From contig NZ_BOML01000006.1 of NCBI RefSeq assembly GCF_016862175.1, positions 248,001 through 312,000 of the forward strand: a stretch of DNA of 64,000 nucleotides, written 5' to 3'. Every line of letters begins with the position of its first letter. Within the stretch, counting starts at the first letter, position 1. The stretch comes from Paractinoplanes durhamensis. GTDB lineage: Bacteria; Actinomycetota; Actinomycetes; Mycobacteriales; Micromonosporaceae. Under the pieces are notes generated by a model. It was given only the letters and a program-made list of their open reading frames with translations, made no database searches and was not told the DNA's origin. Both the position numbers and the translations under genes were made by a program. Below, piece after piece: positions 26,795 to 42,561 of the stretch.

Positions 26795-27745
26795 ATGACT
26801 GCGACAGCGACGTCCCGGCTGTCCGCCCTGCCCGATTCCGCCGTCAACCTGCGCGCTTTCCTGCACGGACTGCCCGGGGTCGACAAGGTGGGCGTCGAGG
26901 CGAGGGCGGCCGCGCTCGGCACCCGATCGGTGAAGACGACGGCCAAGGCGCGGGCGATCGACCTGGCGATCCGGATGGTCGACCTCACCACCCTCGAGGG
27001 TGCGGACACGCCCGGCAAGGTCCGCGCGCTCTCCGCCAAGGCCCTGCGACCCGACCCTGCCGACCCGACCTGCCCGACCGTCGGCGCGATCTGCGTCTAC
27101 CCGGCCATGGTCCCGGTCGCCTACGAGGTGCTCAAGGGCTCCGGCGTGCACCTGGCCAGCGTGGCCACCGCCTTCCCGTCCGGGCAGGCGCCGCTGGACG
27201 TGAAGCTCGCCGACACCCGTGACGCGGTGGCCGGCGGCGCCGACGAGATCGACATGGTGATCAGCCGGGGCGCGTTCCTGGCCGGCGATTACGCCAAGGT
27301 CTTCGACGAGATCGTCGCGGTCAAGGAGGCGTGTGGCAGCGCCCACCTCAAGGTCATTCTGGAGACCGGCGAGCTGGCGACGTACGACAACGTCCGCCGC
27401 GCCTCCTGGCTGGCGATGCTGGCCGGCGCCGACTTCATCAAGACCTCCACCGGCAAGGTCCCGGTGGCCGCCACCCTTCCGGTCACCCTGGTCATGCTGG
27501 AGGCGGTGCGCGACTTCCGGGCTCAGACCGGCCGGCAGATCGGCGTGAAGCCGGCCGGCGGCATCCGCACGACCAAGGACGCCATCAAATACCTGGTGCT
27601 GATCAACGAGACGGTCGGCGACGACTGGCTGAGCCCCGACTGGTTCCGGTTCGGTGCCTCGTCGCTGCTCAACGACCTGCTCATGCAGCGCACCAAGCTC
27701 ACCACCGGCCACTACGCCGGCCCCGACTACTTCACGCTGGACTGA
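26795..27745 (+). CDS. deoC: Deoxyribose-phosphate aldolase
   Basis: 316 residues. The Schiff-base lysine lies in DFIKTSTGK, and GVKPAGGIRTTKDA holds the second catalytic lysine. The enzyme splits 2-deoxyribose-5-phosphate into acetaldehyde and glyceraldehyde-3-phosphate. The N-terminal extension of about 80 residues before the barrel is usual in the longer actinobacterial/eukaryotic-type DeoC. It is the first gene of a three-gene operon with two aldehyde dehydrogenase genes. Confidence 0.95.
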   Translation: MTATATSRLSALPDSAVNLRAFLHGLPGVDKVGVEARAAALGTRSVKTTAKARAIDLAIRMVDLTTLEGADTPGKVRALSAKALRPDPADPTCPTVGAICVYPAMVPVAYEVLKGSGVHLASVATAFPSGQAPLDVKLADTRDAVAGGADEIDMVISRGAFLAGDYAKVFDEIVAVKEACGSAHLKVILETGELATYDNVRRASWLAMLAGADFIKTSTGKVPVAATLPVTLVMLEAVRDFRAQTGRQIGVKPAGGIRTTKDAIKYLVLINETVGDDWLSPDWFRFGASSLLNDLLMQRTKLTTGHYAGPDYFTLD

Positions 27746-27747
27746 TC

Positions 27748-29166
27748 ATGTTCGAGTACGCTCCGGCACCCGAGTCCCGCTCGGTCGTCACGATCCAGCC
27801 CTCCTACGGCCTGTTCATCGACGGCGACTTCACCCCCGGCAAGGACGTCTTCAAGACGATCAACCCGGCCACCGAGGAGGTCCTGTCCGAGGTGGCGCTC
27901 GGCGCTCCCGAGGACGTCGACCGCGCCGTGGCCGCCGCCCGCCGCGCCTTCGCGACGTGGTCCGCCCTGCCCGGCGCCGAGCGGGCCAAATACCTGTTCC
28001 GGATCGCCCGGATCATCCAGGAGCGCTCCCGCGAGCTGGCCGTCCTCGAGTCGCTCGACAACGGCAAGCCGATCAAGGAGACCCGCGACGTCGACCTGCC
28101 GCTGGTCGCCGCGCACTTCTTCTACTACGCCGGCTGGGCCGACAAGCTGCAATATGCGGGCTTCGGCCCCGACCCCAGGCCGGTCGGCGTCGCCGGCCAG
28201 GTCATCCCGTGGAACTTCCCGCTGCTGATGCTGGCCTGGAAGATCGCGCCGGCGCTGGCGGCCGGCAACACGGTGGTGCTCAAGCCGGCCGAGACCACGC
28301 CGCTCTCCGCGCTGTTCTTCGCCGACGTCTGCCGCCAGGCCGACCTGCCGCCGGGCGTGGTCAACATCGTGACCGGCGCCGGCGACACGGGTCGCTACCT
28401 GGTCGAGCACCCCGGCATCGACAAGGTCGCCTTCACCGGTTCGACCGAGGTGGGCCGGCAGATCGCCCGCTCGGTGGCCGGCACCGGCAAGCGGCTCACC
28501 CTGGAGCTGGGTGGCAAGGCCGCCAACATCGTCTTCGACGACGCGCCGATCGACCAGGCGGTCGAGGGCATCGTGAACGGCATCTTCTTCAACCAGGGCC
28601 ACGTGTGCTGCGCCGGGTCGCGCCTGCTGGTCCAGGAGTCGATCGCCGAGGAGTTGCTCGACTCGCTCAAGCGCCGGATGGCCACGCTGCGGGTCGGCGA
28701 CCCGCTCGACAAGAACACCGATGTCGGCGCGATCAACTCGGCCGCCCAGCTCGCCCGAATTACCGAATTGTCGGAAATTGGAAGCGAAGAGGGCGCCGAA
28801 CGCTGGTCGCCAGAATGTTCGCTGCCCGATCGCGGCTTCTGGTTCGCCCCGACGATCTTCACCGGAGTGACCCAGGCGCACCGGATCGCCCGCGAGGAGA
28901 TCTTCGGCCCGGTCCTGTCGGTGCTGACCTTCCGGACCCCGGCCGAGGCGATCGAAAAGGCCAACAACACGCCGTACGGACTCTCGGCCGGCATCTGGTC
29001 CGAAAAGGGCTCCCGGATCCTGGCCGTCGCCGACAAGCTGCGGGCCGGCGTGGTCTGGGCCAACACGTTCAACAAGTTCGACCCCACGTCGCCGTTCGGC
29101 GGTTACAAGGAGTCCGGTTACGGTCGCGAAGGCGGCCGCCACGGCCTGGAGGCGTACCTTGCCTAA
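27748..29166 (+). CDS. NAD-dependent aldehyde dehydrogenase
   Basis: 472 residues, starting 2 bases after the deoC stop. Complete ALDH: VIPWNFPLLMLAWK, FTGSTEVGRQIA, catalytic Glu in LELGGKAANIV and catalytic Cys in GHVCCAGSRL. Cosubstrate binding is conserved (KPAETTPLSA). Its place after deoC suggests oxidation of acetaldehyde from DeoC to acetate. A segment around residues 330-360 (ELSEIGSEEGAERWSPECSL) is shorter than in many relatives but the frame is intact. Confidence 0.9.
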   Translation: MFEYAPAPESRSVVTIQPSYGLFIDGDFTPGKDVFKTINPATEEVLSEVALGAPEDVDRAVAAARRAFATWSALPGAERAKYLFRIARIIQERSRELAVLESLDNGKPIKETRDVDLPLVAAHFFYYAGWADKLQYAGFGPDPRPVGVAGQVIPWNFPLLMLAWKIAPALAAGNTVVLKPAETTPLSALFFADVCRQADLPPGVVNIVTGAGDTGRYLVEHPGIDKVAFTGSTEVGRQIARSVAGTGKRLTLELGGKAANIVFDDAPIDQAVEGIVNGIFFNQGHVCCAGSRLLVQESIAEELLDSLKRRMATLRVGDPLDKNTDVGAINSAAQLARITELSEIGSEEGAERWSPECSLPDRGFWFAPTIFTGVTQAHRIAREEIFGPVLSVLTFRTPAEAIEKANNTPYGLSAGIWSEKGSRILAVADKLRAGVVWANTFNKFDPTSPFGGYKESGYGREGGRHGLEAYLA

Positions 29167-29995
29167 GTCACCGAAGGCGGCTCTGAAGGAGCCCACCCGT
29201 CTTTCCGTGCGAAAGACCTACAAGCTCTACATCGGCGGGTCCTTCCCGCGCAGCGAGTCAGGACGGACCTATCTCGTGGACGGCGACAACGTGGCCCTCG
29301 CCTCCCGTAAGGACGCCCGGGACGCGGTCGTCGCGGCCCGCGCGGCCCAGCCCAAGTGGGCCGCCGCCACCGCCTACAACCGCGGCCAGGTGGTCTACCG
29401 GATCGCCGAGATGGTCGAGGCCCGCCGGGCCGAGTTCACCGCGCTCGGCGTCCCCGCCGACGAGGTGACCGCCGCGATCGACCGCCTGGTCTGGTATGCG
29501 GGCTGGTCCGACAAGATCGCCCAGGTGACCGGCAGTGCCAACCCGGTGGCCGGCCCCTACTTCAACCTCTCCTCGCCCGAGCCCACCGGCGTGATCGGCG
29601 TGATCGCGCCGCCGTCGCTGCTCGGCCTGGTCAGTGTGGTCGCCCCGGCGATCGTGACCGGAAACACCGTGGTCGCCCTCGCGGCCGGCCCGCAGGTGGC
29701 GGTCACCCTCGCCGAGGTGCTGGCCACCTCCGACGTGCCCGGCGGCGTGGTGAACATCCTCACCGGACACGCCGCCGAGACCGCGCCCTGGCTCGCCTCG
29801 CACGACGACGTCAACGGTCTCGACCTGACCGCGGTCGACGACGCGGAGCTCGCCACCGAGCTGGAGCGGGCCGCCGCGGGCACGCTCAAGCGGGTCCGGC
29901 GGCCCGGCAGCGGCGACTTCACCGGTGATCCGGGGACGGCGCCGATGACCGCGTTCCTGGAGACGAAGACGGTCTGGCACCCCAAGGGTTTCTGA
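29159..29995 (+). CDS. Aldehyde-dehydrogenase-like protein lacking the catalytic domain
   Basis: 278 residues against about 470 for the family. Only the NAD-binding part is present (TGVIGVIAPPSLLGL; ALAAGPQVAVTLAEVL; PGGVVNILTG); no catalytic cysteine domain follows, and the glutamate motif is lost. The TTG start overlaps the previous gene by 8 bases and has GGAGG 6 bases upstream, so it is actively coupled. The frame has no break, so it looks like a maintained pseudoenzyme, possibly an interaction partner of the upstream dehydrogenase, rather than a decaying pseudogene. Confidence 0.75.
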   Translation: MPKSPKAALKEPTRLSVRKTYKLYIGGSFPRSESGRTYLVDGDNVALASRKDARDAVVAARAAQPKWAAATAYNRGQVVYRIAEMVEARRAEFTALGVPADEVTAAIDRLVWYAGWSDKIAQVTGSANPVAGPYFNLSSPEPTGVIGVIAPPSLLGLVSVVAPAIVTGNTVVALAAGPQVAVTLAEVLATSDVPGGVVNILTGHAAETAPWLASHDDVNGLDLTAVDDAELATELERAAAGTLKRVRRPGSGDFTGDPGTAPMTAFLETKTVWHPKGF

Positions 29996-30113
29996 CCGCC
30001 GGACGTCGGCCGATGCGGAATCACGGGGGACGGCCTGCCAGCTCTCAGGAGGGCACACTAGGGTGTGTCGGCAGAATCACCGTCCAACCGTCCGAATCAT
30101 CCCGGAGGTCACC

Positions 30114-30974
30114 GTGGCCAGCCAGTCCGACGAGTCCGAGAAGTCCGCAACGGGCCTCTCCGGCCAGGACCTCTGGGAAGAAGTCCGGATCGAACCGGTC
30201 GAAATCGCCCTGCCCGGCGGCGTCGGCCTGACCCTGCGGGCATTCCGCAAGGCCTCCGAGCTGACCCCGACCGAGGTCGTCATCGACGAGGACGACCCGT
30301 TCGAGGCGCGCAAGAAGCGCCTGGCCGCGGAGGACGAGGAAGAGGTCATCGCCGACGACGAGTTCTCGGCGCTGCTCACCGAGGGCGAGGTCGACCAGGC
30401 GGTCGACGAGGACGCGAAGGCGGCGTCCGAGGAGCCCGACCCCGAAGACTTCGAGGACGAAGCGGTCGAGGAGGACGAGGCGGCCGACGAGGACGTCCCG
30501 ATGTTCCTGAGCCACAAGGGCAAGCTGCTCGCGTTCAAGACGCCGGAGTCGCTGGTCTCCTTCATTCGTTCGGGTGCACCGCACGACCTCGCACAACTCG
30601 ACAGCTGGGGCACCCTGGCCGAGCGGGTACAGTCGACCGACATCGACCCGCAGGCGGACGACCGCTACGAGCTCGACCTCGTGGTGGAAAACCTGCGTGG
30701 CGGGCACGACAGCTGGGACCTTCCGCTGCTCATCGCGGCCGGCGAGGTGGCCCGCGACCTGGGCTACGCCCTCCGGCTCAAGCCGGTGATCCTGGCCCTG
30801 TCGCCCGGCTCGCCGCTCGACGATCTGGACGATTCCCTCCGGACGACGGAAAGCGGTGGCATGGGCGGATTCTTCGGTCGCCGCCGATTGAAGAAAATCG
30901 GGGCACAACAGGCAAGTCTCGGCTGGCGCTCGGTAATCGGCAAGATCTCTGCCGCTGTGGACTGGCGCGACTGA
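30114..30974 (+). CDS. Acidic conserved protein, function unknown
   Basis: 286 residues. The GTG has GGAGG 5 bases upstream. Residues about 60-125 are extremely acidic (DEDAKAASEEPDPEDFEDEA). A folded C-terminal half follows (MFLSHKGKLLAFKTPESLVSF; DRYELDLVVENLRGG; LLIAAGEVARDLGYALRLKP) and ends in a basic loop with GGFFGRRRLKKIG. No membrane span or catalytic motif. It immediately precedes the IS110-like/CvnA-tail gene in the same direction, 115 bases away, so a shared role is possible. Confidence 0.65.
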   Translation: MASQSDESEKSATGLSGQDLWEEVRIEPVEIALPGGVGLTLRAFRKASELTPTEVVIDEDDPFEARKKRLAAEDEEEVIADDEFSALLTEGEVDQAVDEDAKAASEEPDPEDFEDEAVEEDEAADEDVPMFLSHKGKLLAFKTPESLVSFIRSGAPHDLAQLDSWGTLAERVQSTDIDPQADDRYELDLVVENLRGGHDSWDLPLLIAAGEVARDLGYALRLKPVILALSPGSPLDDLDDSLRTTESGGMGGFFGRRRLKKIGAQQASLGWRSVIGKISAAVDWRD

Positions 30975-31089
30975 CCCCTCAACAGGGACCATCAGTGCTT
31001 GGCCAAAATGCAATGAGACTTTGACCTGCGCGGCCCCATGACTCATGGTGGGTCCCGAACAAAGTTTCACCGGGGAGGAGGACGACGCC

Positions 31090-33486
31090 GTGGCGCTCGT
31101 GCGCGTGTACTGCGGTCTCGCGTCGGCTGATGAAACGGTGCGCTCGGCCTCGGCCGCGCGGCTGACCATCGCCGTGGTGGATGACGCAGGCCGACTGCTC
31201 GGTGTTCACGAGATCAGCGACGACCCGGGCGGCTACGCCGAGCTGGGCATGCTGCTCGTGGAGCGGACGAGTGGATTCACCGACGCCGCGGTCGCCGCCG
31301 ACAGCGACGATCACCTGGTGACGTCGCTGCTCATCGCGGCGGGCCGTCCCCTGGTGGTCACCGACGACGACACCACCGACGACTTCGCCGAGCGCTTCGC
31401 CGACGACGACTCGGTCGAGGAGATGCAGGCCCCGCCGGCCGCTCGCCGGGCCGCCGGCCTGGCCCGGGCGTTGCAGGCCGGGGCCATCGCCGCGACCAAC
31501 CAGATGGCCCCGCGCGAGCTGGTCAGTTACAAGCCGGTGCTGGCCGCGCACGTGGCCCTCCTCGGCGGCCGGCAGGCGACCGCGATGGCGCTGCGCGAGG
31601 TCCTCCGCGAGCTCTACCCGGCGGCCCTGCGGGCGTTCACCGACCCGGCCCACCCGCTGGCCCTCGCCGTGCTCGACGCGCTGCCCGAGCCGGGCCGGCT
31701 CACCGCGCAGGGCGACCCCGAGCGGGTGGCCGAGCAGGTCGCCGCCGAGCTGATCCGCTCCGGCGCCGGCTCCGACGACGAGATCATCGCGGCCGTCACC
31801 GCGCTGCACGTGGCGATAAGCGAGTCGCCGCGCCGTGGCGGGGTCAACAAGTCGCTGGCCCCCGCGGCCGCCGAGACGGTCCGCAAGGCCATCGCGGCGG
31901 TCCGTGCCTGCGACGCCGCCTGCGCCTCGCTGATCGGCACGATCGCGGCCCGCAGCAGCACCGCGGCCGGCTCGACCCGGCGCCGCGCGGAGGCAGCACC
32001 GCTGCAGTCCGTGCCCGACGCCCGCCTGACCCGGCGCACCCGGCGCGATCCGATCAGCGACGGCAGCCCGGTCATCCCGCAGCCGATGAATGCTCCGCCG
32101 ACCGCACCCGACCCGGTGGCCCCGCCGCCGCTGGCCCCGCGCCCGGTCACCCCGCCGCCGGTCGCGCCCGCGGCCGCCGCGGCCTTCCCCAACCGCGCTC
32201 CGGTGCCCGGCAACCGCCCGGTGTCGGTGCCCCCGCCGCCGCCCGGCATGACGCCGATCACACCCGGTTCCCGCCCGGTCTCCGGTGGCCGCAGCCCGGC
32301 CTCGGCACCGCCGCCGCCCGGCTTCGGGCCGGCCTCCGCGTCGCCGGCACCCGGGTTCGGGCCGTCGTCCGCGCCGTCGCCCGGCTTCGGGCCCTCGTCC
32401 GCACCGCCGCCCGGCTTCGGGCCGTCGTCCGCGCCGCCGTCGTCCGCGCCGCCGTCGCCCGGGTTCTCCTCGCCCGGCTACCCGCCGCCGTCCGCACCGC
32501 TGTCCCCGGCCGCGTCCGTGTCGCCCGCCGAGAGTGGACAGCCGTTCCGGGCGACGCTGACCAACGCCGCGATCAACAGCGTTCGCGCCGAGCGGCAGCG
32601 CACGGTCATCCCGCCGCGTCCCGGCCGCGCCGCGCCCGCACCGGGCAGCGCCACCGACTATTCTTCGCTGCCGATGCCGGCGCCGCGTCCGGAGCCGTCC
32701 GAGCCCGGCTCCCGGGCCAACTGGCCGATGATGAACCCGGGTGCCGACGACCTGCCGGTCCCGGCCGCCTCGTCCTCGATCAGCGCCCCGCCCTCCGCCG
32801 ACACCGGCCGGGTCAAGCCGCCGTGGCAGGACATGCCGAAGGAGCCGCCGGCCCTGCGCCTGGTGGAGCCGCGCATCGGCAACAGCCTCGACGCCACCGT
32901 GGCCGATCTGCCGCCGGTCGGCGACCCGCCGTCGCTGCGCCTGGTCGAGGGCGCCGCCCGCCGCCGCAACGGCAACAACGGCACGATCTCCAGCTCCGGC
33001 ACCACACTGACCGCGCTCGACCGCAGCACCGCGCCGCCGGTTCCGTCCGACGGCAGCGACGGTGACCTGCTGATCTTCGCGGCCGCCCGGTCGGCCTGGT
33101 TCACCGGCCACACCGACCAGACGCCTGACATGGATTGGGCCAACGCGAACGACAGCGGATGGCAGGCCGCCGAGCGTGCCGCCACCCCGGAGATCGCCGC
33201 CGAGACGCCCGCGGGCCTGCCCAAGCGCGTCCCCCAGGCCAACCTGGTCCCCGGTTCGCCGCTGCGTGACGAGCGCCCGCTGCGCATCGTCCGCGACGCG
33301 GCGAGCATCGCCGCGCACACCACCGGCTACTTCCGTGGCTGGCGCCGCGGTCAGGAGATCGGCGGGTTCGCGATGGGTGGCCGGCCGGGCCGCGAGTCGG
33401 CCGGCGGCTGGGACTTCACCCGGGACCGGGAAGGCGCGGACGACTACCGCAACAACAACGACAACGCGAACTCCAACTCTCGCTAG
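31090..33486 (+). CDS. Large proline-rich protein: IS110-like N-domain plus CvnA-type C-terminal tail
   Basis: 798 residues from the GTG at 31090, chosen for GGAGGAGG 8 bases upstream; an ATG at 31045 would add 15 residues. Residues 1-220 resemble the DEDD domain of IS110 transposases (VYCGL..., a beta strand with DAGRLLGVHEI, then LREVLRELYPAALRAF and ALAVLDALPEPGRL), but the first catalytic Asp is replaced (GLASADE) and the second IS110 domain is missing. A 300-residue Pro/Ser-rich linker has repeats of PGFGPSSAP. The last 130 residues match the tail of CvnA: SAWF, GWQAA, GLPKR.P.A.LVPG, then a GYFRGWRRG end. Probably a domesticated protein tied to conservon signalling; this is inference. 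Confidence 0.7.
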   Translation: MALVRVYCGLASADETVRSASAARLTIAVVDDAGRLLGVHEISDDPGGYAELGMLLVERTSGFTDAAVAADSDDHLVTSLLIAAGRPLVVTDDDTTDDFAERFADDDSVEEMQAPPAARRAAGLARALQAGAIAATNQMAPRELVSYKPVLAAHVALLGGRQATAMALREVLRELYPAALRAFTDPAHPLALAVLDALPEPGRLTAQGDPERVAEQVAAELIRSGAGSDDEIIAAVTALHVAISESPRRGGVNKSLAPAAAETVRKAIAAVRACDAACASLIGTIAARSSTAAGSTRRRAEAAPLQSVPDARLTRRTRRDPISDGSPVIPQPMNAPPTAPDPVAPPPLAPRPVTPPPVAPAAAAAFPNRAPVPGNRPVSVPPPPPGMTPITPGSRPVSGGRSPASAPPPPGFGPASASPAPGFGPSSAPSPGFGPSSAPPPGFGPSSAPPSSAPPSPGFSSPGYPPPSAPLSPAASVSPAESGQPFRATLTNAAINSVRAERQRTVIPPRPGRAAPAPGSATDYSSLPMPAPRPEPSEPGSRANWPMMNPGADDLPVPAASSSISAPPSADTGRVKPPWQDMPKEPPALRLVEPRIGNSLDATVADLPPVGDPPSLRLVEGAARRRNGNNGTISSSGTTLTALDRSTAPPVPSDGSDGDLLIFAAARSAWFTGHTDQTPDMDWANANDSGWQAAERAATPEIAAETPAGLPKRVPQANLVPGSPLRDERPLRIVRDAASIAAHTTGYFRGWRRGQEIGGFAMGGRPGRESAGGWDFTRDREGADDYRNNNDNANSNSR
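32310..32480 (+). repeat. Coding repeat PGFGPSSAP in the proline-rich linker
   Basis: Four to five imperfect copies of a 24-30 base unit containing cccggcttcgggccgtcg. Proline-rich repeats of this kind make extended linkers. Confidence 0.7.
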
Positions 33487-33496
33487 TCGAAGCAGC

Positions 33497-33530
33497 AAAA
33501 AGGCGGCCGCGGCATAGCGGCCGCCTTTTT
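33497..33530. terminator. Bidirectional rho-independent terminator
   Basis: Perfect 14-bp arms aaaaaggcggccgc (33497-33510) and gcggccgccttttt (33517-33530), loop ggcata, with T-tracts for both strands, between the convergent IS110-like and dehydratase-VOC genes. It is the most canonical terminator in the window. Confidence 0.92.
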
Positions 33531-33535
33531 CGTGC

Positions 33536-34186
33536 CTACTTGCGGTCCTGCCAGGTGCACAGGCAGACGCGGTTGCCCTGCGGGTCGGCCAGCACCCAGA
33601 AGCTGGGCGCCTCGGAGTCGCTCTCCAGCGTGCCGCCGGCCGCCACCGCCGCGTCGATCCGCGGCTGCACCTCGGACGGGTCGATCCACAGGTCGGGGTG
33701 CCACCGCTGCCGGGGCTCGGCGCTGCCGGACTGCTGGAACCAGATCGTCGGCAGCGCGCCGGACGGGTCGGCGACCTCCTCGTCGTAGTCGCCGGTGCGT
33801 CGCTCGAACCCCAGGATCGCCTCCCAGAACGGCGCCACCACCGCGAAATCCGGGCTGTCCAGGCCGAACTCCAGCCAGGTCAGACCGGTCGACGAGTGGG
33901 TCAGGCCGGCGTCCGCGACCAGCGCCGAGATGGTGCGGGCCAACCGCACGTCGCGCGCCGTCACCCCGCCGGTGTCATGGCTGGTGAGGCGGACGTCGAC
34001 GTGGGTGTAGCGCAGGTCGAGATCCGGATGATGATCCATCTCCTCGGCCGCCGCGCCGATCGCGTTGACCAGCGCCAGGCCGGCGGCGAAGCCACCGCTG
34101 CCGACCCGGGTCTGCAGCCCGTTGTACAGATGCGTCCAGCCCGTCAGGCCCTCGGCCGCGACCTGTTGTCCCGTCAGCTTCGTCAT
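33536..34186 (-). CDS. Pterin-4a-carbinolamine dehydratase fused to a VOC domain
   Basis: 216 residues. The N-terminal 95 residues are a 4a-hydroxytetrahydrobiopterin dehydratase (EEMDHHPDLDLRYTHVDV...GGVTARDVRLA; the HHP catalytic pair is intact). The C-terminal 110 residues are a glyoxalase/VOC-type domain (LEFGLDSPDFAVVAPFWEAILGF; PEVQPRID; FWVLADPQGNRVCL). Dehydratases recycle pterin cofactors and many serve molybdopterin or unknown roles. The next gene, an Lrp regulator, reads the same way 16 bases upstream. No aromatic amino acid hydroxylase is nearby. Confidence 0.88.
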   Translation of the reverse strand: MTKLTGQQVAAEGLTGWTHLYNGLQTRVGSGGFAAGLALVNAIGAAAEEMDHHPDLDLRYTHVDVRLTSHDTGGVTARDVRLARTISALVADAGLTHSSTGLTWLEFGLDSPDFAVVAPFWEAILGFERRTGDYDEEVADPSGALPTIWFQQSGSAEPRQRWHPDLWIDPSEVQPRIDAAVAAGGTLESDSEAPSFWVLADPQGNRVCLCTWQDRK

Positions 34187-34202
34187 GCTCCCATCCTTCC
34201 CC

Positions 34203-34685
34203 TCAGCCCCGGCTCCCGCTGCCCGTGACCGGGCCGATCCGGTGGTTGCGGATGTGCTCGTAGACGATCGACGTGCGGACGTCGGCGACCTCCGGGCGCT
34301 GGGTCAGCCGGTCGATGACGAACTCGTAGAGGCTCGCGTTGTCCGGCACCGCCACGTGCACGATGAAGTCGTCGGTGCCGGTCGTGACGTAGAGCCCGAG
34401 TGTGTCCGGCAGCATGCTGACCCACTCGCGGAAGGCCTCGATGTTGCGCCGCGACGGCGGCCGGATCCGCACCGCGATCAGCGCCTGCACCGGCCGCCCG
34501 ATGGCCGGCAGGTCGACGTCGAGGAGCGCGCCCCGGATCACCCCGCGCCGCCGCAACGCCCGGGTGCGGTCGAGCGCGGTGGTCGGCGAGACACCGACCG
34601 CCGCCGCCACCTCCCGATTGGTCTTCCGTGCATCCGACTGGAGTTCCCGCAGGATCGCCGTATCAAGTTCGTCGAGGTCAGTCAT
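34203..34685 (-). CDS. Lrp/AsnC family transcriptional regulator
   Basis: 160 residues. N-terminal HTH: LDELDTAILRELQSDARKTN, VAAAVGVSPTTALDRTRALRRRGVIRG. The C-terminal RAM domain is present (VQALIAVRIRPPSRR; GLYVTTGTDDFIVHVAVPD). It is divergent from the DUF2000 gene 100 bases away, so it probably senses an amino acid or related ligand and controls that gene. Confidence 0.92.
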   Translation of the reverse strand: MTDLDELDTAILRELQSDARKTNREVAAAVGVSPTTALDRTRALRRRGVIRGALLDVDLPAIGRPVQALIAVRIRPPSRRNIEAFREWVSMLPDTLGLYVTTGTDDFIVHVAVPDNASLYEFVIDRLTQRPEVADVRTSIVYEHIRNHRIGPVTGSGSRG

Positions 34686-34785
34686 CTGCCTCTCTCTTCC
34701 GCGATTAGTACGGATGCTTTGCAGCTATCGTATTCATCTGCCTAGCATTCTTCGCAGAGCCCGGATGAATGCACAGGGAGACAGC

Positions 34786-35247
34786 ATGACCGTCGGATTT
34801 GCCACCGAGGAGATCGACCCGAGCGCGCCGACCCGGGCCGCCCGCCTCAAGTGGGTCGTGGTGGTCGACACCGCCCTGCCCGCCGGCCGGGCCGCGAACG
34901 CCGCGATCTGCACCGCCGCCGCCACCGTCAAGGCCGTCGCCGGTCTGCTCGGCGACGACGCGATCGACGCCGACGGCAACAGCCACCCCGGCCTGCCCTG
35001 GGCCGGCTGCACGGTGCTGGCCGCCGACGCCGCCACCCTCCGCACCATCCGGGCCCGGGCCGCCGCCCGCCCCGACTTCTTCGTCGCCGACATGCCCGCG
35101 GCCGCCCAGCAGACCCGCGTCTACACCGAATACCTGACCGCCGTCGGCGAGGCGCCGGCCGACGCCCTCGACTACTACGCGGTCAGCATCGTCGGCCCCC
35201 GCAATCCGCTGGACAAGATCGTCGGCAAGCTTCCGCTGATGCCCTGA
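34786..35247 (+). CDS. DUF2000 family protein
   Basis: 153 residues with the DUF2000 pattern: KWVVVVDTALPAGRAANAAICTAAA, LLGDDAIDADGNSHPGLPW, and a C-terminal GPRNPLDKIVGKLPLMP. The fold is related to peptidyl-tRNA hydrolase II; members often lie beside Lrp regulators and their role is unknown. ATG 34786 has AGGGAG 5 bases upstream. The HAD gene follows after 12 bases. Confidence 0.85.
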   Translation: MTVGFATEEIDPSAPTRAARLKWVVVVDTALPAGRAANAAICTAAATVKAVAGLLGDDAIDADGNSHPGLPWAGCTVLAADAATLRTIRARAAARPDFFVADMPAAAQQTRVYTEYLTAVGEAPADALDYYAVSIVGPRNPLDKIVGKLPLMP

Positions 35248-35259
35248 GACCATGTCGAG

Positions 35260-35949
35260 GTGCGGGCTATCGTCTTCGACTTCTTCGGCACGTTGACCGA
35301 CCCGGCCGCCGAGGCCGGCCGCCGCGATTCCGTCACCGCCACCGCGGCCGCCCTGGGCGTCCCCGCCGACCGCTTCTGGCACGCGATGGGCGCCAGCTTC
35401 CCGGAGCGGATCGTGGGCGGCTACGGCGACGCCCGGCAGACGCTGCGCCGGGTGGCCCGGGACTGCGGCGCCGACCCGGCCGAGTCCGAGCTGGACGCGG
35501 CCGTGGCCGCCCAGCTGGCCGGCTCGGTCCACGTCCGGCCGCCCCGGCCGGGCGTGCTCGACCTACTGGATCGGCTGCGCGCCGACGGCTACCGGCTGGG
35601 TCTGATCAGCGACTGTTCGAGCGAGCTCTACGAGTCCTGGCCGGAAACGCCCTACGCGCCCAGGATCGACGCAGCGGTCTTCTCCTGGCACGAGGGGTAC
35701 CGCAAGCCCGACCAACGCCTCTACGAGGCCGTCAGCGCCCGTCTCGGGGTAAACCCGGCCGACTGCTGGTATGTCGGGGACGGCGGCAGCCGCGAGCACG
35801 CCGGCGCCCACCGGGCGGGGATGCGCCCGATCCTGGTGACCAACACGGCCTACCCGGACGCGGCCGCCCTGCGCAGCGATCCCGACCCCTACACGCCCGC
35901 GCTGGCGATCCCCGACCTCGACGCCCTGCCGACGCTGATCGACTCTTGA
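35260..35949 (+). CDS. HAD superfamily hydrolase
   Basis: 229 residues. Motif I is VFDFFGTLTD (the second Asp is replaced by Phe), motif II is LISDCSSE, motif III includes the lysine in GYRKPDQRLYEA, and motif IV is YVGDGGSREHAGA. A typical phosphatase or dehalogenase-like HAD of the Gph type. The DxD first aspartate is present (VFDFF), so nucleophile function is kept, but the usual general acid position is Phe; dehalogenase-like chemistry is possible. Confidence 0.85.
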   Translation: MRAIVFDFFGTLTDPAAEAGRRDSVTATAAALGVPADRFWHAMGASFPERIVGGYGDARQTLRRVARDCGADPAESELDAAVAAQLAGSVHVRPPRPGVLDLLDRLRADGYRLGLISDCSSELYESWPETPYAPRIDAAVFSWHEGYRKPDQRLYEAVSARLGVNPADCWYVGDGGSREHAGAHRAGMRPILVTNTAYPDAAALRSDPDPYTPALAIPDLDALPTLIDS

Positions 35950-35956
35950 GCATGCA

Positions 35957-35989
35957 GAAGCCCCGCTCCGACTATCGGAGCGGGGCTTC
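35957..35989. terminator. 14-bp hairpin terminator
   Basis: Arms gaagccccgctccg (35957-35970) and cggagcggggcttc (35976-35989) with loop actat, between the convergent HAD and cvnD genes. Confidence 0.8.
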
Positions 35990-35998
35990 CACCAAGCG

Positions 35999-36610
35999 CT
36001 ACGCCGGCGCTACGGCCCGCGTGCGACGCATCGTCAACACATACTCGACGAGCGAGATGAGGACGTTCTTCGTCGACTCGCGGTTGCGGGCGTCGCAGCT
36101 CACCACGGGCACGTCGCTCGAGATCGCGAGCGCGTCCCGAACGTCCTGCGCGTTGTGGTACTGCATCCCGTCGAAGCAGTTGATCGCCACCAGGTACGGG
36201 AGGCGACGGTGCTCGAAGAAGTCGATGGCGGCGAAGCAGTCGGCCAGCCGGCGCGTATCGACCATGACCACGGCACCGATCGCGCCCCGGACCAGTTCGT
36301 CCCACATGAACCAGAAACGGGTCTGGCCCGGGGTACCGAACAGGTACAGGATCAGGTCACGATCGATACTGATGCGGCCGAAGTCCATGGCGACGGTGGT
36401 CGTCATCTTCCCGGGCACCTGCCGGTTGTCGTCGACACCCACACCAGCCGAGGTCATGATCGCCTCAGTGGTCAGTGGGGTGATCTCCGAGACCGACCCG
36501 ACCAGCGTCGTTTTGCCGACGCCGAACCCACCGGCGATGACAATCTTCGCCGATGTAACGCGTCCCCCCGCAGCGGGACGGTGCGACATGTCAGAGCCTG
36601 CGAAGTCCAC
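35999..36610 (-). CDS. cvnD: Conservon G-protein CvnD (ATP/GTP-binding protein)
   Basis: 203 residues. The P-loop is GGFGVGKTTLVG; switch regions with LYLFGTPGQTRFWFMWDEL and the base-binding region CFDGMQ are typical of the MglA-like small GTPases found in conservons. Start: GTG 36610 has GGAAAGGG 7 bases upstream; an ATG at 36589 is 1 base past the cvnC stop. It is the last gene of cvnABCD. In streptomycetes these complexes couple a membrane kinase to a GTPase. Confidence 0.92.
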   Translation of the reverse strand: MDFAGSDMSHRPAAGGRVTSAKIVIAGGFGVGKTTLVGSVSEITPLTTEAIMTSAGVGVDDNRQVPGKMTTTVAMDFGRISIDRDLILYLFGTPGQTRFWFMWDELVRGAIGAVVMVDTRRLADCFAAIDFFEHRRLPYLVAINCFDGMQYHNAQDVRDALAISSDVPVVSCDARNRESTKNVLISLVEYVLTMRRTRAVAPA

Positions 36611-36977
36611 TCAGCACCCTTTCCAGCAGTTCCGTGCCTACCGCGTCGGTCTCGTCGTCCAGCGAGGTGGGCTCGTACACCGCGACCAGGCCATCAGTGG
36701 CCATGTCCGCGACGATCACTCGAGCCACACCGAGCGGCAGTTGCATGCGTGCGGCGATTTCAGCGAGCGACTGCACACGGCCGCCGTCGCACATGGCCGC
36801 GATGTACTGATGCTCGCTTCCACCCTGCCCGCCGCGGATCATTCCTGATCGCCCGCGCACGGTTGTCTCGACCAGCGCTTCCAGCGCTATCTCAAGCTTC
36901 GGCCGGGTCCGACCGCGGGTCACGGCGTACGGCCTGACCAGCGCGCCTGTCGGCTCATCGCGTTCGGGCATCGTCAC
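36591..36977 (-). CDS. cvnC: Conservon protein CvnC (DUF742)
   Basis: 128 residues. LVRPYAVTRGRTRPKLEIALEALV and PLGVARVIVADMATDGLV are the DUF742 hallmarks; the C-terminal part is a winged-helix-like fold. It ends within cvnD (overlap of 20 bases). An 85-base gap to cvnB contains TTGACA on the minus strand without a convincing -10, so an internal promoter is unproven. Confidence 0.9.
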   Translation of the reverse strand: MTMPERDEPTGALVRPYAVTRGRTRPKLEIALEALVETTVRGRSGMIRGGQGGSEHQYIAAMCDGGRVQSLAEIAARMQLPLGVARVIVADMATDGLVAVYEPTSLDDETDAVGTELLERVLSGLRRL

Positions 36978-37062
36978 CGCTCACCCCTTCCTCGAACCCC
37001 TAGAAGTGTCTCTTGTTGTCAATGATTTGGACAGCGGCCGGATGAACCGGCTACCTGCCCGT

Positions 37063-37467
37063 TCAGCCCAGCACGCCGGCCGCGGAACGCGGAGCCGGAG
37101 TGAGGGCCTCGCCGACGCGGTCGACAAGGAGGGCCATCTCGTAGCCGACCTGACCGACGTCGCAGCTGCGCGCTGCGAGCACCGCGAACGACGAGCCATC
37201 GGAGATCGACATCAGGAAAAGGAACCCGTTGTCCATCTCGACGACCGTCTGCAGCACCGCGCCACCCTCGAAGCACCGAGCGGCGCCCTGGGTGAGGCTG
37301 ACCAGGCCGGAGGCGATTGCCGCCAGCTGGTCGGCACGGTCACGCGGAAGGTCCCGCGATGCTGCGAGGAGCAGACCGTCGGCGGAGACCGCGATCGCAT
37401 GCGCGACTCCGGGAACGCGGTCGGCGAAGTTGGCCAGAAGCCAACCGAGATCCTGCGTAGATGTCAT
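37063..37467 (-). CDS. cvnB: Conservon protein CvnB (Roadblock/LC7 domain)
   Basis: 134 residues. [34 protein letters not shown] is the signature start of actinobacterial Roadblock/LC7 proteins, which act as GTPase-activating or scaffold partners of the small G-protein. The ATG overlaps the cvnA stop (ATGA), so the two are translationally coupled. Confidence 0.92.
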
Positions 37468-40400
37468 GCCTCATGCTCCTTGCCAGCCTGCGAGGACTGC
37501 TGCCCTCCCGGAGTTCCCTCCGGGTTGGTCGATTGTTCCTTGGTGCGACCGCGCTGCACACCCCGGTGGTACGCGGACAGCAGACCGCGAACTCCCTCGG
37601 GCGTGCGCTTCTGGGCGGGGTCTCCGCCACGGTCGACACCGCCGGGGACGAGCTGCGCCATCGGTGTGCGCTTGGGCAGCCCGGCCGTGGTAGTGGTGTC
37701 GATCGAGTGCTCGGCGGCCGCGCGAGCGGCCTGCCAGCCTTCGTCGGCAGCGGTTTGCCATGGATTACTCGCCACGCTGCCGTTGGCCCCGTTGCCGTTG
37801 GAGCCATTGCCGTTCGAACCGTAGCCGTTCGTGGCGCCAACGCCCACTGTTGCCGGGTCGAGCTCCCGCGATTCGGGCGAACCGGCCTGCTGCGGCACCG
37901 AACGGGTGGGTTCCCCGGTCGGGATCCGCTGCGAGGTGACCGCTTCGTCGGAGCCGTTGGGCTTGCCGTCCGGCCGGGACGGTGTGGTAGTGGTGAACCA
38001 CGCCGACTCGAGCTCGCGGAAGATCGGTAGCTCCATCGTCTCGTCGGCGAACTGGCCCTGGTTGCTGTCCCGCTGACGGGCTGCCGCCTGGGCCGCGGCG
38101 ATCTGCTGAGCCGCGGTGGCCTGAGCCTCGGCGGCCTGGGCCGCCGCGATCTCGTGGGCCGCCCGGGCCGCAGCCGCCGCCCGCTGCTGGGCTTCCGGGC
38201 CACCCGAGGTCGGCATCGCGGAGACCGGGGTCGCCGACACCGGACGGGCCGGCGGGGCGGACGACGGGATCGGCGCGGTCTGCGGGTTGCTCGGGCGCTC
38301 GACCTGGGGGTCGGACCGCTCGGGCCGGTAGCGCGGGATCTCGGCGGTCATGTCGAGCGCCGCGGCGAGGTTCTCCGGCACGTGCGGAGTGGCGTTCGGG
38401 TCGCGCTCGGGGGCGACCGGCGGCCAGACCGGTGGGTTCGCGGCCGCACCGGACACCGGCGACCCGTTGGCCGGCGGTGCCGAGTTCGGCCGGCCGTACG
38501 GCACCGGGGGTGCCGAGACCGGCGGCATCGGCGGGGCCGACACCGGCGGAACGTAACCGCCGCGACCCTGACTCTCCGGGTTGGACGGCAGCTGCCGCGG
38601 GATCGACGGACCACCGTAGGTGTCGTTGCCCGTCTGGAACTGGTCGCCGTTGCGGCGCTGCGGCAGGCCGTCGGGGCCGGTGAAGCCCTGCGGGCCACCG
38701 CCCGGGCCCATCGGGCCGGTCGGCAGCGGCGGGATCATCTCGTTGCTGCGCGGGCCGTAGAAGCCGTTCTGGCCGCCACCGCCGCCGCCGTTCGACGAGC
38801 CGTTGGTGCCGAAGCCGTTGGAACCGTTGGAACCACCCGACGCGCCGGTCAGATCGGACCAGGCCGGAACGCCGCGGCTGCCGTTGGTGCCGAGCATGCC
38901 GCCGTTGGGCATCGGCGGGTTCGGGTCGAAGGGACGGCCACCGGGGTAACCGCCACGACCGCTCTCCAGGGCCAGCGGCTCGGGCATGCCCGAACGACCG
39001 GGACCCTGCTGCAGGCTCTCGTAGCCGTTGGCCGGCAGCGGACGACCGGCGCTGTTACCGCCGGAGAGCACCGGCAGCGGCAGGCCGACCTCGGCCACCG
39101 TGCCGCGCTCGCTGTCGGCCGGGCGCAGCTCGACCTTGACGCCGTGCCGGTTCGCCAGCCGGGCGACCACGACCAGGCCCATCATGCGGGAGACGGCCAC
39201 GTCCACCATGGGCGGGTTGGCGAGCCGCTCGTTGAGGTCGCGCAGCTGTTCCCGGCTGATGCCGATGCCGCGGTCCTCCACCGAGAGCAGCGCGCTGTCG
39301 CCCAGCCGCCGGGCCTCGACGGTGACCGTCGAGTTGGGCGGCGAGAACGCGGTCGCGTTGTCGAAGAGCTCGGCGACCAGGTGGACCATGTCGTTGACGG
39401 CGTGCGCCGCCACCTCGATGTCTCGGTCGATCATGCCGAACTCGATGCGGGTGTAGTGCTCGACCTCGGACTGGGCGGCCCGGAGCACGTCGATCAGGGC
39501 GGCCGGCTCGCGCTGCACGCGGGTCGAGTCGGCGCCGGCGAGAACCAGGAGGTTTTCGTCGTTACGCCGCATTCGAGTGGCCAGGTGGTCGAGCTGGAAG
39601 AGCTCGGCCAGACGGTCCGGGTCTTCCTCGCCGCGCTCCAGCCGGTCGAGGTGACCGATGAGCCGGTCGACCAGGATCTGCGAACGGCGGGCGAGGTTGA
39701 CGAACATCGTCGCGACGGAGGCCCGCAGGGCGGCCTGCTCGGCCGCGGTGCGCACCGCCTCGAGGTGAACCGCGTTGAACGCCTCGGTCACCTGACCGAA
39801 CTCGTCCCGGCTGCGCACCGGCAGCGGCTCGGCGATCTGGTCGGCGACCTGGGCCGGGGTCAGTGAGGTGGCGAGTGCCGGATCTCGCAGTCGGGAAACC
39901 GCGTGCGGCAACCCGAACTGGGCGACCGACAGGGCACCCTGGCGCAGCTCACGCAGCGAGCGGGCCATCGACCGGGCGACGAGCCAGGCGAACAGGATGG
40001 CCAGCAGCAGCATCGCGAGCAGAACGCTGGTCTCGATGAAGACCTTGCGGTTCACCGCGTTACGCAGATCGGTGGCCTCGACCACGATGTCGGCGTCGAA
40101 CTTCTTCTCCACCTCGCGGAAGAGATTGTTGTAGCCGATCATCGCCGTCTCCCACTGCTGGGAGTCGAACGGGATGTTCTTGGTGTTCGCACCCTGCAGC
40201 GCGCGGAGCTGGATGGTCAGGTTGGTGGCGGCGCGGCCGTCGGTCACGTTCGCCGTGCGCTCGAAGAGCTGCTGCTCCTCGTCGCTGCCGACCGACTTGA
40301 CGCTCGACTGCGCGAGCTTGAAGCCGGCGTCGGTGAGCAGGAAGTCCTGGCGCAGCGTGGCGTTGAAGTCGCCGGCGCCGAGCACCTCGTGACCGACGTC

Positions 40401-41042
40401 GCGCTGCTGGGAGATGAAGTCCTTGGCCCGGGCGACGGCGGCCACCGTACGCAGGTGGTCGCTCAGCTCGGTGTCGCTGGCCAGCTGGGCGGAGACGTCG
40501 CGGACCGAGAGCAGGTCGTCGATCAGCTTGCCGTAGGTGTCCTTGACGTCATCGGCGTTGAGCTTGCCGTTGGCGATCTGGCTCCGCTTGGCGGGCAGGT
40601 CCTCGAGGTTACGGTCCAGCCGCAGCAGGAGGGTGCTCACCTTGGGCGGCACGTCATCCAGCGCGGCCTTCTGCTGCGAATACGGAACCTTGGCCTGGTC
40701 GACCTGAGCGTGCTCGCCGTTGTAGGCCTTCATCGCCACGTCGCGGACAGTGCTCTGCCGCGGGCTCGTGGTGATGATGACGCCGTAGGCACGTTCGTTC
40801 TGCAGGCGGTCGACGAGACCACCGGCGGCCTCCGACAGAACCGAAAGGTTCCGAGCGCGCTCCGCGTTGCTCGCCTCGTCGATGTGGTCCACCAGACCGC
40901 TGACGCCGACGATGATCGTCGCCAGGGTAGGCACCAGCATGATGAGACCGAGCTTCGACCAGATCGGCAGATCTCGCAGCCGATCGGCCGGCCGACGGAG
41001 ACGCGACATGACGCCGGTCGCCGTCTTGGGGCGCTTGCTCAC
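37464..41042 (-). CDS. cvnA: Conservon sensor kinase CvnA (NIT-domain histidine-kinase-like)
   Basis: 1192 residues from the GTG at 41042, chosen for AGGAGG 8 bases upstream. Layout: first membrane span (about 28-50), a nitrate/nitrite-sensing (NIT)-type external domain, second span ([17 protein letters not shown]), HAMP, the helical H-box region ([20 protein letters not shown]) and the ATPase core ([22 protein letters not shown]). The last 500 residues are Gly/Asn/Pro-rich and disordered, ending in a conserved tail ([35 protein letters not shown]). The canonical phospho-His is absent, as in many CvnA kinases. No response regulator is encoded here. Confidence 0.9.
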
Positions 41043-41478
41043 GTCACCGTCCTCCTGATTCGGGCCCGGCTTTCGGGTCGCCGGAACACCGCACACGGCC
41101 GACTACCGCGTCGGGCCCCCGAGATTCCATCACGACGAGTGTCAAAGAGAAAGAGCAGGCGGACACGGACCGCTTGTGTGACGCGATGTTGCTCCGTCGG
41201 AGTTGGACATCGCCGGTTCGTTATGACTGCCTGTATCGCTTCGCATCTCTCAGAGTCACTCATGCCGATCGACTCGACGCGGGGGTGTCGTCGTTCGATC
41301 GGGCCCGATCGTAGTGGATCGCGGCAGGACAGACGATGTCGCGGTCGGGCCCGCAGAGCAAGGTGAGATGCCCGATTTTGAAGTATTTGTAGGGACCATT
41401 CTGACCGAACGGATGAGACGTCTCACCGAACCGGCAAAGCCGCAAACCTTAGGTCGGGTGGCGCTTGCCGGGAAGCAC
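41043..41478. other. Control region between cvnA and add
   Basis: 436 bases without a gene. A minus-strand TTGACA (41145-41140) has no good -10 at the right distance. Two dyads: an imperfect one with arms gatgt/ctccg and cggag/acatc (41185-41211) and a perfect 12-bp palindrome TGAGACGTCTCA (41414-41425). A 74-codon minus-strand frame (41263-41039) overlaps the cvnA start by GTGA, is arginine-rich and lacks a ribosome site; it was not accepted as a gene. Confidence 0.6.
41414..41425. promoter_or_regulatory. 12-bp perfect palindrome downstream of add, upstream of cvnA
   Basis: TGAGACGTCTCA, flanked by cgg and ccg with one offset base. It lies 55 bases beyond the add stop and 372 bases upstream of cvnA. 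A regulator site is plausible; no cognate regulator is apparent. Confidence 0.35.
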
Positions 41479-42561
41479 TCAACCCAGCAGCTTGGCGTAG
41501 GCCGGCTTGATCACTTCGTTGATGATCTCGAGGCGCTCGTCGTACGGGATGAAGGCCGACTTCATGGCGTTGATGGTGAGCCACTGCAGCTCCGCCCAGC
41601 CCCAGCCGAAAGCCTCGCTGAGCAGGGCCATCTCCCGCGACATCGAGGTGCCGCTCATCAACCGGTTGTCGGTGTTGACGGTGACCCGGAACCGCAGATC
41701 GTGCAGCAGACCGATCGGGTGCTCGGCGATCGAGGCGGCCGCACCGGTCTGCACATTGGACGAAGGGCACAACTCCAGCGGAATCCGCTTGTCGCGAACA
41801 TAGGCCGCGAGGCGTCCGAGAACGGCATCTTCCCCAGGCGTACGCGTGATGTCGTCCACCAGCCGCACCCCGTGCCCGAGCCGGTCGGCGCCGCACCACT
41901 GGATGGCCTGCCAGATCGACGGCAGGCCGAAGGCCTCGCCGGCGTGGATGGTGAAGTGGAAGTTCTCACGCTGGAGGTACTCGAAGGCGTCCAGGTGCCG
42001 GGTGGGCGGGAAACCGGCCTCGGCGCCGGCGATGTCGAAGCCGACCACGCCCGCGTCCCGGTAGCGCACCGACAGCTCGGCGATCTCCTGCGAGCGGGCC
42101 GCGTGCCGCATCGCGGTCAGCAGCACCCCGACCCGGATCGGCCGGCCCAGGGCCGCCGCTTCCGCGGAACCTTCGACAAATCCGGCATTCACCGCGTCGA
42201 CCACGTCGTCCAGCGAAAGACCGCGCTCCAGATGCTGCTCCGGCGCGTAGCGCACCTCGGCGTAGGCCACCCCGTCCGCGGCCAGGTCGAGCGCGCACTC
42301 CTTGGCCACCCGGTGCAGCGACTCGGCGGTCTGCATCACCGCCACCGTGTGCGCGAACGTCTCCAGGTACCGTTCGAGCGAGCCCGAATCGGCCGCCGCG
42401 ACGAACCACTCGCCCAGCGCCGCCGGATCGCCGGCCGGAAGCTCGTGCCCGATTTCCCCGGCGAGCTCGAGGATGGTCTCGGGGCGCAGACCACCGTCGA
42501 GGTGGTCGTGCAACAGCGCTTTCGGTGCCTTGACGATGTCGGAGTGCGTGATGGCGGCCAT
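41479..42561 (-). CDS. add: Adenosine deaminase
   Basis: 360 residues. Zinc and catalytic motifs are complete: [10 protein letters not shown] (N-terminal His-x-His), HAGEAFG with the catalytic glutamate, and [12 protein letters not shown] with the metal-binding Asp. It deaminates (deoxy)adenosine to (deoxy)inosine in purine salvage. A leaderless -10 (TAGGCT) lies 6 bases upstream of the ATG. It is divergent from the RlmA-type gene. Confidence 0.94.

Follow-up and report, generated by a model that had tools for sequence, protein, structure and literature searches.

Actinomycetes commonly carry conservons, Ras-like GTPase systems in which a kinase, CvnA, passes its signal to CvnB-CvnD. A 64,000-nucleotide stretch of Paractinoplanes durhamensis DNA (contig NZ_BOML01000006.1, positions 248,001 to 312,000; hereafter the window) raises a question beside one of these systems: what is a protein that begins like an IS110-type transposase (IS, insertion sequence) and ends like CvnA? 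We consider it fairly probable that the product of this fusion gene is a kinase-free, probably dimeric adaptor, the tail of which would dock to a Roadblock protein (CvnB-type) of the conservon G-protein system.

The reading frame spans positions 31045-33486 of the plus strand, and its likely start is a GTG at 31090, which is preceded by GGGGAGGAGG and lies 115 bases 3' of the stop codon of a satS-like gene. The resulting product has 798 residues, divided into an N-terminal domain of about 300 residues, a linker, and a 140-residue tail (Table 1). We followed the gene in a survey of 150 family genomes, drawn from a larger group, and in two sets of loci. From 40 fetched loci, chosen to include most of the diverged ones, 38 were kept, after a second tail-bearing paralog (L095) and an IS110 frame without tail (L096) had been set aside. 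From a named collection the best 80 of 210 loci were used, with downstream counts made on the 59 that extend 4.5 kb or more downstream. Across the 38 fetched loci, open frames of the fusion proteins range from 497 to 1141 amino acids.

The original prediction held that the end of this protein repeats, in order, the SAWF, GWQAA, GLPKR, LVPG, and RG-end motifs of the nearby CvnA, and BLASTP, Smith-Waterman, and profile comparisons against shuffles all bear this out. The fusion tail matched the window CvnA in BLASTP (4e-6) and scored 136 in Smith-Waterman alignment, against a maximum of 72 in 2000 composition-matched shuffles of the tail (147 against ≤118 in 1000 shuffles with a cheaper gap). Profile-profile comparison gave a probability of 99.1 and a score of 112.5 (≤20.7 in 60 column shuffles), and the order common to both tails reads (L/P)IF...SAWF, GWxAA, GLPKRxPxAxLVPG, YxRGxxRG. 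When the whole 10.5 Mb genome was searched with the CvnA tail, the query recovered itself, a second CvnA (5.3e-23), the fusion protein (4.9e-9), and one more match with an E-value of 0.37. Motif 1 or a variant, followed by motifs 2-4, was present in all 30 CvnAs assigned in family loci, and Pfam gave no meaningful match for the tail of the window protein. True homology between the fusion tail and CvnA tails is thus supported by sequence comparison, and chance similarity of low-complexity tails was rejected.

To what extent this tail belongs to CvnA was judged from a class-wide sample rather than from a published definition. We sampled 60 tail genes across the E-value range of the class matches, leaving out three fusion genes and taking from the window's own genome only a weak match at C34. 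A Roadblock gene followed 59 of the 60, 56 had a kinase match in the same frame as the tail, and a loose pattern detected motif 1 in 45. Because the sampled tails are nearly always followed by Roadblock and joined to a kinase, we regard the tail as the regular end of CvnA. The four frames without a kinase match comprise one cut by a contig end (L146), two that look interrupted (L136 and L172), and L142 (G131 C119), which begins 50 bases from a contig start and shows no Roadblock match over the following 1.9 kb. These four cut or interrupted frames apart, a kinase-free tail was seen only in the fusion described here. As a signature of conservon kinases, the four-motif tail is widespread among class genomes; the genome of L142 has eight tail matches, and a third kinase of the window's genome (L183, G000 C34) has a weak match to the later motifs only, with a Roadblock gene behind it.

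The N-terminal domain was compared with IS110 in the same manner. The window domain matched IS110 frames directly in single-sequence searches (best 8.3e-13), and both matching frames that were domain-scanned carry PF01548 and PF02371. Its profile matched IS110 with a probability of 99.5 and a score of 164.5 (≤20.5 in 30 shuffles), at 29% identity over 217 profile columns, and PF01548 was matched in 6 of 8 diverse orthologs (best 32.3 bits, cut-off 29). The window protein itself had no meaningful match in Pfam, PF02371 included, and none in NCBIfam, with chance-level matches on pieces; sigma-54 (E 0.013) and weaker matches from a sequence search of solved structures were also taken as chance. 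The predicted resemblance to an IS110 DEDD transposase therefore stands, but its loss is not limited to the first Asp: in a joint alignment of 8 IS110 and 38 fusion proteins, the catalytic columns read D, E, D, D in all eight IS110 proteins and A, D, A, R in the window protein. To call the second half of the domain missing, as had been proposed, goes too far: the RuvC-like and coiled-coil parts both remain, and what is gone is the C-terminal Transposase_20 part alone, before which the IS110 homology stops. According to PMC11208158, IS621 requires all four DEDD residues plus Ser241 of the Tnp domain, and its coiled coil dimerizes. Derivation of the N-domain from IS110 with loss of its catalytic residues is supported by these alignments, and the transposase domain, judged from those residues, looks dead.

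Across the family, the fusion gene was found in 148 of 150 genomes, 146 by single-sequence search and two more by profile; of the remaining two, one carries at least the tail, on a contig of 5451 bases whose end falls within the gene, and one has no match. A single match was found in 143 of the 146 genomes and two in the other three. N-domain and tail share one frame in 37 of the 38 fetched loci by window query (the N-domain of L093 was matched only in the family survey), and the tail is present in 59/59 named loci. The paralog L095 (G366), a second diverged fusion copy of 501 amino acids, has the tail and no satS or Roadblock match in its fetched stretch. The best 80 named loci belong to genera that we take to be Micromonosporaceae, or to uncultured Actinomycetota, and the most diverged form found is in Glycomyces, Natronoglycomyces, Haloglycomyces, Salininema, and Stackebrandtia, presumably all Glycomycetaceae. 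The ratio of nonsynonymous to synonymous substitution rates (dN/dS, NG86) had a median of 0.24 and a maximum of 0.45 over 120 non-independent pairs of 16 sequences, namely those of the window and of 15 close relatives (14 within the same genus).

In class-wide samples, matches were found in 38 of 246 genomes for the N-domain profile and in 79 of 197 for the tail profile; judged by coordinates, the three genomes of this family are the only ones where the two sets of matches coincide. The N-domain matches in the other 35 genomes fall mostly in IS110-sized frames; four are in frames of 576-855 amino acids, three of them weak, and one such frame, of 756 amino acids, ends in an apparently complete IS110. 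By eye on coordinates, none of the outside-family matches lies near a tail match in the genomes present in both lists. By these counts the fusion gene is a family-wide core gene under purifying selection, and it has the properties of a domesticated transposase, being conserved, immobile, under purifying selection and, by its residues, inactive. Domestication had been part of the original prediction and holds; its term "fragment", in the sense of decay, does not.

Beyond that prediction, which had not placed the gene in the family core, diverged lineages carry a Roadblock gene of their own directly behind the fusion. Such a gene follows in 20 of the 38 fetched loci (L075-L094), where the fusion stop and the aligned Roadblock start are 15-146 bases apart, and also at L187, L188, L194, and L202. 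Two of these proteins were scanned and are Robl_LC7 (59-65 bits), and in 3 of 4 named loci examined the inferred Roadblock start overlaps the fusion stop codon, the same overlap that cvnB has with cvnA in the window. In a tree built on few columns, whose long branches limit the placing of their origin, the fusion-linked Roadblocks form one clade (18/18 distinct rows, support 100/100, 78 others outside). No Roadblock gene lies behind the fusion in the window or in the other 18 of the 38 loci. In these 18 partner-less genomes and the window's, the best genome-wide match to a linked Roadblock reached 41-43% identity and 84-92 bits (positive control, 228 bits). This best-scoring protein was the CvnB of the adjacent conservon in 18 of the 19 genomes, the window's among them, and in the other it lay at a tail-bearing gene elsewhere.

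Partner-less loci differ in a second respect. A block GGxxxGGRPGRxxxGGWDF or a variant stands behind motif 4 in 18/18 loci without a Roadblock gene and in 0/20 with one, by a pattern widened once after it had missed L067. Shared descent may explain this exclusion, and the block may be a new binding element. L194, a named locus from a metagenome-assembled genome, has both a Roadblock gene and a partial block and looks intermediate; on the Actinoplanes/Micromonospora side, the own Roadblock has probably been lost.

A satS homolog lies upstream of the fusion within 1 kb, 48-729 bases from the match, in 80/80 named loci, and upstream in 38/38 fetched loci too. The predicted co-occurrence with conservon operons was recovered, as a convergent cvnD lies downstream in 57/59 named and 30/38 fetched loci; in the window the neighboring cvnA had been placed 6 kb away, and its end lies about 4 kb from the fusion stop. 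On the fusion's own strand, no cvnC or cvnD match was found in 38/38 fetched and 59/59 named loci, so that the tail and Roadblock are the only conservon components to accompany the fusion. Further tail matches occur in non-fusion frames, which were not domain-scanned, in 12/12 genomes tested. On the minus strand, the stretch from the fusion gene to the conservon contains a frame (33536-34186) with a Pterin_4a and then a Glyoxalase_6 domain. The region (26795-42561) is flanked by deoC and the satS-like gene; 41479-42561 is presumably an adenosine deaminase gene, and these flanks recall what we take to be the mycobacterial satS neighborhood. A promoter scan found none near the fusion gene, and terminator-like sites were no more numerous in the region than in shuffles.

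Table 1 Coordinates of the fusion gene, its parts, and its neighbors in the window
Feature	Position	Strand	Remarks
satS-like gene	30063..30974	+	Directly upstream, conserved neighbor; NCBIfam SatS 34.5 bits, far below cut-off 700
Fusion gene (IS110-type domain that looks dead, proline-rich linker, CvnA-type tail)	31090..33486	+	Open frame, GTG with ribosome-binding sequence, orthologs
RuvC/RNase H-like domain	31099..31491	+	Model residues 4-134
IS110 catalytic Asp 1 position	31120..31122	+	Ala; D in 8/8 IS110, 0/38 fusion proteins
Catalytic Glu position	31300..31302	+	Asp; E in 1/38 fusion proteins
Catalytic Asp 3 and Asp 4 positions	31438..31449	+	Ala and Arg; D in 4/38 and 8/38 fusion proteins
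Helical coiled-coil domain	31504..31965	+	Model residues 139-292; resembles IS110 coiled-coil part and Nop5 / Nop56/58 chains
Low-complexity linker	31975..33057	+	25% proline; length differs among species
Tail motif 1	33064..33102	+	DLLIFAAARSAWF
Tail motif 2	33136..33180	+	W..A.DSGWQAAERAA
Tail motif 3	33214..33255	+	GLPKRVPQANLVPG
Tail motif 4	33292..33354	+	RDAASIAAHTTGYFRGWRRGQ
C-terminal block	33361..33426	+	GGFAMGGRPGRESAGGWDFTRD; present where downstream Roadblock gene absent
Terminator-like hairpin	33509..33530	+	Directly 3' of fusion gene; diverged relatives have Roadblock gene at this place
cvnD (GTPase by position)	35999-36610	-	80-99% identity to same place in 30 relatives' loci
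cvnC (DUF742)	36591-36977	-	Pfam
cvnB (Roadblock/LC7)	37063..37467	-	Start overlaps cvnA stop; in this genome, scores highest against relatives' fusion-linked Roadblock
cvnA (NIT, HAMP, HATPase)	37464..41042	-	Kinase with same tail
CvnA tail, motifs 1-4	37545..38030	-	

As only the tail and Roadblock were retained, the most straightforward interpretation has the tail meeting the Roadblock. An IS110 transposase gene would have joined the 3' end of a cvnA in the common ancestor of Micromonosporaceae and Glycomycetaceae, replacing the kinase and leaving the tail and the next gene, a Roadblock gene, in place. The transposase core, dimeric in IS621, may have taken over the carrier role of the dimeric kinase, its coiled coil dimerizing as in IS621 and offering two tails to a Roadblock dimer. 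In Actinoplanes, Micromonospora, and their kin, after loss of the own Roadblock, the tail would use the CvnB of the adjacent operon, where it would compete with CvnA or bridge to it and so alter the state of the GTPase CvnD, possibly by inhibition, bridging, or targeting.

Several observations weigh against this docking model. No cvnD was found within the fetched stretch in 8 of the 38 loci, so that conservon linkage is not obligatory, and an own Roadblock follows the fusion in just 4 of the 59 named loci, the fetched set being biased to diverged ones. The fusion-linked clade sits on a long branch and not beside any particular CvnB that would point to a donor conservon. The 59/60 adjacency mostly mirrors the conservation of cvnAB operons, and a single origin underlies the 20 fusion loci, so that neither number counts independent events; since cvnAB is an old operon, adjacency alone is no proof of binding. 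The whole N-domain reached a Foldseek template modeling score (TM-score) of 0.33 to IS110 chains, its RuvC-like and coiled-coil sub-domains matching separately and not as one body. Finally, the tail modeled alone is predicted mostly disordered, with a mean predicted local distance difference test score (pLDDT) of 56 and two short helices.

Some of these points fit an alternative that we consider possible but rather unlikely, in which the tail serves another task, such as membrane or pole localization or binding of CvnC, CvnD, or a shared chaperone (e.g., the SatS-like neighbor), and Roadblock adjacency was simply inherited from the cvnAB operon. That adjacency is indeed ancestral in conservons, the isolated tail is disordered, and satS is the steadier neighbor (80/80 against 4/59 named loci for Roadblock). 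Yet the fusion cluster kept Roadblock and not the kinase, CvnC, or CvnD, and where it has no Roadblock of its own the best-scoring one is nearly always the adjacent CvnB, which favors docking. A second alternative, that the dead IS110 core still binds RNA or DNA and gives the G-protein system a nucleic-acid-dependent input, appears improbable: the stretch matched in structure comparison (e.g., 127-256 of 2nnw_A) is largely the coiled coil of that fold, the counterpart of the IS621 Tnp domain, which reads the bridge RNA in that system, is absent, and no Rfam match was found at 29000-42000, although Rfam need not contain a bridge RNA of this kind. We are doubtful of the most ambitious version of the docking model, according to which a dead RNA-guided recombinase core would be a core signaling scaffold of two actinobacterial families that dimerizes, still senses nucleic acid, and through its captured kinase tail feeds this input, instead of a histidine kinase, into a Ras-like G-protein switch, the tail being the conservon Roadblock-docking module. 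A pseudogene or recent transposon remnant open by chance, which the frequent "transposase" label in public records might suggest, is ruled out by presence in 148/150 genomes, fixed synteny, a dN/dS of 0.24, and the conserved tail. A recent IS insertion was likewise rejected.

Among known systems, the fusion protein shares a RuvC-like fold and helical coiled coil with IS110 transposases (PF01548 + PF02371; IS621, ISCro4) but has lost DEDD, lacks Transposase_20, and is single-copy, syntenic, and fused to a linker and tail. With CvnA kinases (NIT-HAMP-HATPase) it shares the four-motif tail behind a low-complexity linker and, in diverged lineages, the Roadblock gene that follows; unlike them it has no sensor, HAMP, or ATPase part by Pfam, and its strand carries neither CvnC nor CvnD. 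Nop5, Nop56, and Nop58 and TIGR-Tas also place a helical coiled coil after a RuvC-like domain, and in Nop5, according to PMC12045711, the RuvC-like part has no activity and serves to recruit a further protein; the match to the fusion leaves out most of the Nop part that binds RNA, and no guide RNA was seen. CvnE and CvnF are likewise extra proteins tied to conservons, CvnF8 acting on its CvnA (PMC13343842, PMC8510531), but they are of GAF or P450 type with predicted contact to the dimerization and histidine phosphotransfer (DHp) and HATPase domains, whereas the fusion is transposase-derived and carries the kinase's own tail. The main texts of both papers contain neither "C-terminal" nor "C terminus", and that of PMC8510531 does not contain "transposase"; PMC13343842 describes unstructured, less confidently modeled terminal regions of CvnA8 and CvnF8 and states that the phosphorylation target of CvnA8 is unknown. 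The open-access literature yielded no IS110-derived signaling protein, nor this fusion or tail.

In eukaryotes, domesticated transposases and host-transposase fusions join a transposase domain under purifying selection to a host part; the fusion differs in being bacterial, IS110-derived, and tied to a Ras-like GTPase system. In databases this gene often carries a misleading "transposase" label. For the conservons themselves, a protein from which the kinase was cut away and in which tail and Roadblock were kept points to the tail as the link between CvnA and its partners. If our reading is true, the fusion would clearly exemplify, for bacteria, how a transposase was domesticated into a likely signaling protein, now a core gene of its family.
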